From positions 1 to 41,549 of the forward strand of contig REGH01000005.1 in NCBI GenBank assembly GCA_003702495.1: DNA of 41,549 nucleotides. Reading direction: 5' to 3'. The notes below the pieces were generated by a model. That model worked only from the letters and a program-made list of their open reading frames with translations. It searched no databases and was not told the DNA's origin. Shown piece after piece: positions 41,216 to 41,300 of this stretch; the first letter of the stretch is position 1, and each line of letters begins with the position of its first letter. Source of the DNA: Candidatus Nitrosopumilus sp. Lineage in GTDB: Archaea; Thermoproteota; Nitrososphaeria; Nitrososphaerales; Nitrosopumilaceae. The position numbers and the translations under genes are program-made.

Positions 41216-41238
41216 GCCTGGAATGGAAATAAAGGGGT
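41216..41238 (+). promoter_or_regulatory. ORB-like element (copy 1): gcctggaatggaaataaaggggt
   Basis: 23-bp exact direct repeat of 41278-41300; contains a TGGAAA..AAAGGGGT core resembling archaeal origin recognition boxes. Confidence 0.75.
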
Positions 41239-41277
41239 AGGATTTTAGATATTCACAGTGTTAACGTCAATCTTAAC

Positions 41278-41300
41278 GCCTGGAATGGAAATAAAGGGGT
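41278..41300 (+). promoter_or_regulatory. ORB-like element (copy 2): gcctggaatggaaataaaggggt
   Basis: Exact copy of 41216-41238; start-to-start distance 62 bp. Confidence 0.75.

Follow-up and report, generated by a model that had tools for sequence, protein, structure and literature searches.

Archaeal ORBs share the common motif TCCA[CG]T[TG]GAAA[TC][GA]AAGGGGT, as given in the available extract of the Ori-Finder 2 report (PMC4164010); in the same extract the motifs of halophiles and methanogens vary in parts of the box, and the motif table shows no thaumarchaeal cluster. Winged-helix arginines of ApeOrc1 (R345, R346, R367 and R369) lie near the ORB DNA, and in the monomer complex the ISM makes contact with the G-tract (PMC9738581, in extract). 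The Sulfolobus origin features in addition the ucm element, to which the protein UBP binds (PMC12141716, in extract). In Nitrosopumilus maritimus a single origin has been mapped (cited in PMC4010727, in extract) and is predicted also by Ori-Finder 2 (PMC4164010, same extract). For archaea, most of the detailed evidence has been gathered in Sulfolobus, haloarchaea and Thermococcales, and it is an open question how boxes and initiators change together.

Two perfect copies of the 23-mer GCCTGGAATGGAAATAAAGGGGT are found close to the end of the window, the whole 41,549-nt stretch of Candidatus Nitrosopumilus sp. DNA analysed here (Table 1). As the earlier note had stated, they have the same orientation (+ strand) and are spaced 62 bp start-to-start. 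Chance alone would give about 1e-4 exact 23-mer pairs in 41.5 kb; with up to 3 mismatches allowed, neither the rest of the window nor 100 dinucleotide shuffles of it yielded a further match. The host genome scanned is a draft assembly of 1.27 Mb (93 contigs, 93% complete). In it the 15-nt core TGGAAATAAAGGGGT has no extra copies at 0-1 mismatch, and the confinement to the origin anticipated for a genome-wide exact and degenerate search holds at this threshold. At 2 mismatches one inverted copy near the origin (41370-41384, - strand) and 3 scattered copies were detected, the reversed control pattern giving 2. The window hosts also two tandem copies of a 45-bp unit, 100% identical (22634-22723), within an ORF of the - strand (22571-22972).

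Table 1. Features of the putative origin region (window coordinates unless otherwise stated)
Feature	Position	Strand	Remarks
Winged-helix-like protein gene	40671..41057	-	128 aa; divergent, origin neighbour; origin role not implied
GTTAAC / TTAAC motif array	41080..41353	.	interspersed with ORBs; positions conserved in the genus
Stand-alone half-site CGTGCCTAG	41147..41155	+	67 bp upstream of ORB1; matches the 5' half of the Nitrosopumilaceae ORB
ORB1	41214..41238	+	23-bp repeat 1 (41216-41238), extended 5' by two conserved bases; place conserved in Nitrosopumilaceae
ORB2	41276..41300	+	23-bp repeat 2 (41278-41300), extended 5' by two conserved bases; conserved in Nitrosopumilaceae
ORB3	41366..41388	-	weaker inverted box; core GGAAACAAAGGTGT at 41370-41383; conserved in genus alignment
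AT-rich stretch, candidate duplex unwinding element	41389..41517	.	between ORB3 and ORB4; 82% AT vs 66% in the window
ORB4	41518..41537	+	weaker box; core (41518-41531) stops 6 bp short of the orc1 start codon
orc1/cdc6 start	41538..41549	+	first 12 bases in the window; N gap, then intact gene at contig 41765-42967

The intact Orc1/Cdc6 encoded beyond the N gap is 400 aa long (TIGR02928, 1.7e-110, plus Cdc6_C) and features the AAA+ domain, the Cdc6 lid and the C-terminal winged helix. In the 93% complete draft no Orc1/Cdc6 match was found other than the gene that begins at 41538; PolD DP1 is located behind this gene, and PolD DP2 upstream. The scaffold N gap falls just past the window end (locus coordinates 2423-2776), and about 127 bp are repeated on both its flanks. 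This repeat is an assembly artefact, a failed overlap duplicating ORB4 and the orc1 start. In three single-contig Nitrosopumilus genomes the box pair is found near the contig end, and orc1 at the contig start. As is typical of ORBs, several copies lie beside the initiator gene and few elsewhere in the genome. Judging from sequence comparisons, the two 23-bp repeats are almost certainly Orc1/Cdc6-binding boxes at a chromosomal replication origin, because they are unique at 0-1 mismatch, adjoin the sole orc1/cdc6 match, are conserved in the family, and have canonical boxes as counterparts at the orthologous site.

The G-tract-ending core GAAA[TC][GA]AAGGGGT of the published motif is present, as GGAAATAAAGGGGT, in both repeats, which depart from the Ori-Finder 2 motif only at the central base and at the left arm. 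TCCA, the left dyad arm, is absent, and with it the TCCA-N-TGGA inverted symmetry, so that the departure from the crenarchaeal/euryarchaeal dyad described by the earlier note is borne out. Since this arm is missing, the repeats have been classed as variant ORBs; halophile and methanogen motifs vary in parts of the box as well. At this place Nitrosopumilaceae have TGGA or TAGA, TCCA being the commonest sequence elsewhere; their T(A/G)GA is moreover extended 5' to AYGCCTRGA. In Nitrosopumilaceae, the information content of the AYGCCT.GA tract preceding TGGAAA reaches 1.3-1.9 bits at most positions, and little information is found 5' of TCCA in other families, which points to replacement of the left half of the box, rather than to its decay. 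In 26 of 34 Nitrosopumilaceae loci CAYGCCTRG is found also alone, the best match (up to 2 mismatches) being located 66-69 bp upstream of ORB1. A literature text search for the exact core returned a sole match, an ORB of Archaeoglobus profundus.

Nitrosopumilaceae genomes host TRGA-type boxes in 170/200 cases (113/119 among the good genomes), most of these having exactly two, some of the compared loci being near-copies of one another and the family counts consequently non-independent. The reversed control pattern gave 4 matches altogether in the same 200 genomes, and the TRGA pattern two stray matches in 42 genomes outside the family. In a 300-genome sample of the class, the canonical-box pattern was found in about 170 Nitrosopumilaceae as two single matches, each with a mismatch, and as many pairs outside. 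Since TRGA is frequent inside the family and stray outside, and the canonical box is near-absent inside and paired outside, the variant is, on these counts, a Nitrosopumilaceae trait. The thaumarchaeal ORB variant proposed earlier stands, in this genome, as an origin-only variant beside orc1/cdc6, but has to be restricted to this family, as Nitrososphaeraceae and others keep TCCA. At the orthologous site upstream of orc1, the other Nitrososphaerales families host a canonical TCCA-N-TGGAAAYAAAGGGGT pair, 60-64 bp apart; in more distant archaea TCCA is mostly kept, but this spacing is not. Of the 41 Nitrosopumilaceae loci scanned, 39 have a box spacing of 60-62 bp, one of the remaining two being truncated and the other having a 38-bp spacing. 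The suggested phasing by six helical turns is, in its strict form, weakened by the Nitrosopelagicus-type subclade, in which ORBs are 38 bp apart (about 3.6 turns) and the stand-alone half-site is missing.

The four ApeOrc1 arginines were placed on the 2V1U alignment (offset +12), arginine being found at all four positions. The Orc1 encoded here keeps the R345 and R346 equivalents, and most of the DNA interface may therefore be unchanged; R367 is replaced by Q and R369 by I, at residue 370. The R367 position varies in other archaea too. At the R369-equivalent position, R is found in 65/65 non-Nitrosopumilaceae proteins, and I, M, T or V in 44/44 Nitrosopumilaceae. The incomplete arginine set marks a variant interface, not a different protein family. 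A 3-residue insertion beside Walker B (Orc1 residues about 158-163) is similarly found in 44/44 Nitrosopumilaceae and 0/65 others. An archaeal-type Orc1/Cdc6 (39% identity) is encoded also by contig JAJPHT010000007.1, titled Proteobacteria MAG and probably a misassigned bin. In an Orc1 tree built without the wing-arginine and insertion columns, the 34 sampled Nitrosopumilaceae all fall on one side of a single, fully supported branch, so that one event suffices for the wing change. The box change and the wing-arginine loss map to this same branch, the ancestor of Nitrosopumilaceae, as does the gain of the 3 residues; box change and arginine loss being one event each, their coincidence does not establish a causal link.

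Since TCCA is replaced by AYGCCTRGA and the R369-equivalent arginine is missing, Nitrosopumilaceae Orc1 most likely reads an asymmetric box. That box and initiator changed together, as the single evolutionary event may suggest, is an evenly balanced proposition. The chances are similarly divided that in the Nitrosopumilaceae ancestor one ORB half was replaced by the half-site AYGCCTRGA, to be recognised either by a second origin-binding protein or by an Orc1 whose remodelled winged helix lacks the wing arginine invariant elsewhere. In a more specific and rather doubtful version, the repeats would still be origin boxes, but composite: Orc1 would sit on the TGGAAA...GGGGT half only, and a second protein on AYGCCTRG and on the upstream half-site. 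The occurrence of the half-site alone at a conserved upstream distance speaks for such an arrangement, as does the lack of the AYGCC part in ORB3 and ORB4, which retain the core. The second protein has however no candidate, ORB1 and ORB2 always have the half-site joined to the core in a fixed register, and the change in the Orc1 wing coincides with that in the box.

Half-site, ORB1, ORB2, inverted ORB3, an 82% AT stretch and ORB4 follow each other in this order across the intergenic region. The layout expected of oriC1-type origins, inverted ORBs on either side of an AT-rich stretch next to orc1/cdc6, is thus found directly upstream of orc1. AT content alone is not specific, because another stretch just as AT-rich lies at about 40376-40520. 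The inverted pair mentioned in the earlier note is real (41364-41383 / 41518-41537, 95% complementary over 20 nt). The repeats are placed in a divergent intergenic region, with ORB4 directly adjoining the orc1 start codon, as would suit operators mainly controlling transcription of orc1 and of the winged-helix gene, with replication starting elsewhere. This is very improbable, as ORB sequence, AT-rich stretch and orc1 linkage jointly fit known archaeal origins, and a single N. maritimus origin has been both mapped (PMC4010727, in extract) and predicted by Ori-Finder 2 (PMC4164010, in extract); origin and operator roles may besides coexist. A different class of initiator for the direct repeats than for the inverted pair, as differences in the left half and GGGG versus GGTG might indicate, is unsupported and has been rejected as improbable in the extreme, since all four elements share the GGAAAYNNNGGKGT core, a single Orc1/Cdc6 match is found in the assembly, and sister families have canonical-dyad boxes at this very position.

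As Orc1/Cdc6-binding sites, ORB1 and ORB2 would be the strong boxes of an oriC1-type origin set between the divergent winged-helix gene and orc1/cdc6. Orc1 would bind each box with a defined polarity, the AAA+/ISM side on the GGGGT tract and the winged helix on the dyad side, and the G-tracts of ORB1 and ORB2 would face the AT-rich stretch. Bracketed by the weaker, inverted ORB3 and ORB4, this stretch would be the site of duplex opening and MCM loading. Binding, opening and loading steps are modelled on Sulfolobus oriC1 (PMC12141716, in extract). ORB4 may allow also autoregulation by Orc1 of its own gene.

GTTAAC palindromes are unusually dense in the region, 5 being found in 337 bp against 0.15 expected. 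TTAAC/GTTAA enrichment was found also in Nitrososphaeraceae and one further Nitrososphaerales family, is weak in a few Bathyarchaeota, and was not seen in the euryarchaeal loci examined. The array possibly represents candidate sites for a second origin-binding protein. Small winged-helix-like genes accompany orc1 on the far side of the origin in Nitrososphaeria and in many Bathyarchaeota, and weaker matches were found at two Asgard loci; some Nitrososphaeraceae loci have no match at the threshold used. The idea that this neighbour binds GTTAAC is unsupported, as at most Bathyarchaeota loci a homologue lies close to orc1 and GTTAAC is not enriched. Its homology to Sulfolobus UBP, with no sequence match among solved structures, is unsupported as well at the level of sequence, though a relationship in fold may exist.

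The origin itself is of a known kind; the altered half-site may be new. In the literature surveyed, partly in extract and the primary N. maritimus mapping paper (reportedly Pelve et al. 2013) aside, no description of the altered half-site and of the arginine loss was found. In a widespread family of ammonia oxidisers, half of the box at an orthologous origin and a defined DNA-contact residue changed on the same branch. If the new half-site is read as proposed above, this would represent a natural re-wiring of the initiator-origin code inside one orthologous origin. The TRGA box provides moreover a motif for locating Nitrosopumilaceae origins.

Among known systems, the locus is closest to the ORBs of oriC1-type origins, bound by Orc1-1/Cdc6: the TGGAAAYNNNGGGGT core with its G-tract, the multiple boxes and the adjoining orc1/cdc6 are all shared, as are the inverted boxes around an AT-rich stretch. 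It differs from canonical ORBs for the left arm, T(A/G)GA in place of TCCA, for the conserved AYGCC 5' extension, and for the upstream stand-alone half-site. The Nitrososphaeraceae-type canonical pair is similarly formed by two direct boxes, there 60-64 bp apart, at the orthologous place upstream of orc1. Unlike Nitrosopumilaceae, however, other Nitrososphaerales keep both TCCA-N-TGGA and the Orc1 wing arginine, and lack a conserved 5' extension. The GTTAAC array may be compared in place with Sulfolobus ucm, as an extra conserved motif within an archaeal origin; the winged-helix neighbour has no match by sequence among solved structures. The single mapped origin of N. maritimus belongs to the same genus as the locus described here.
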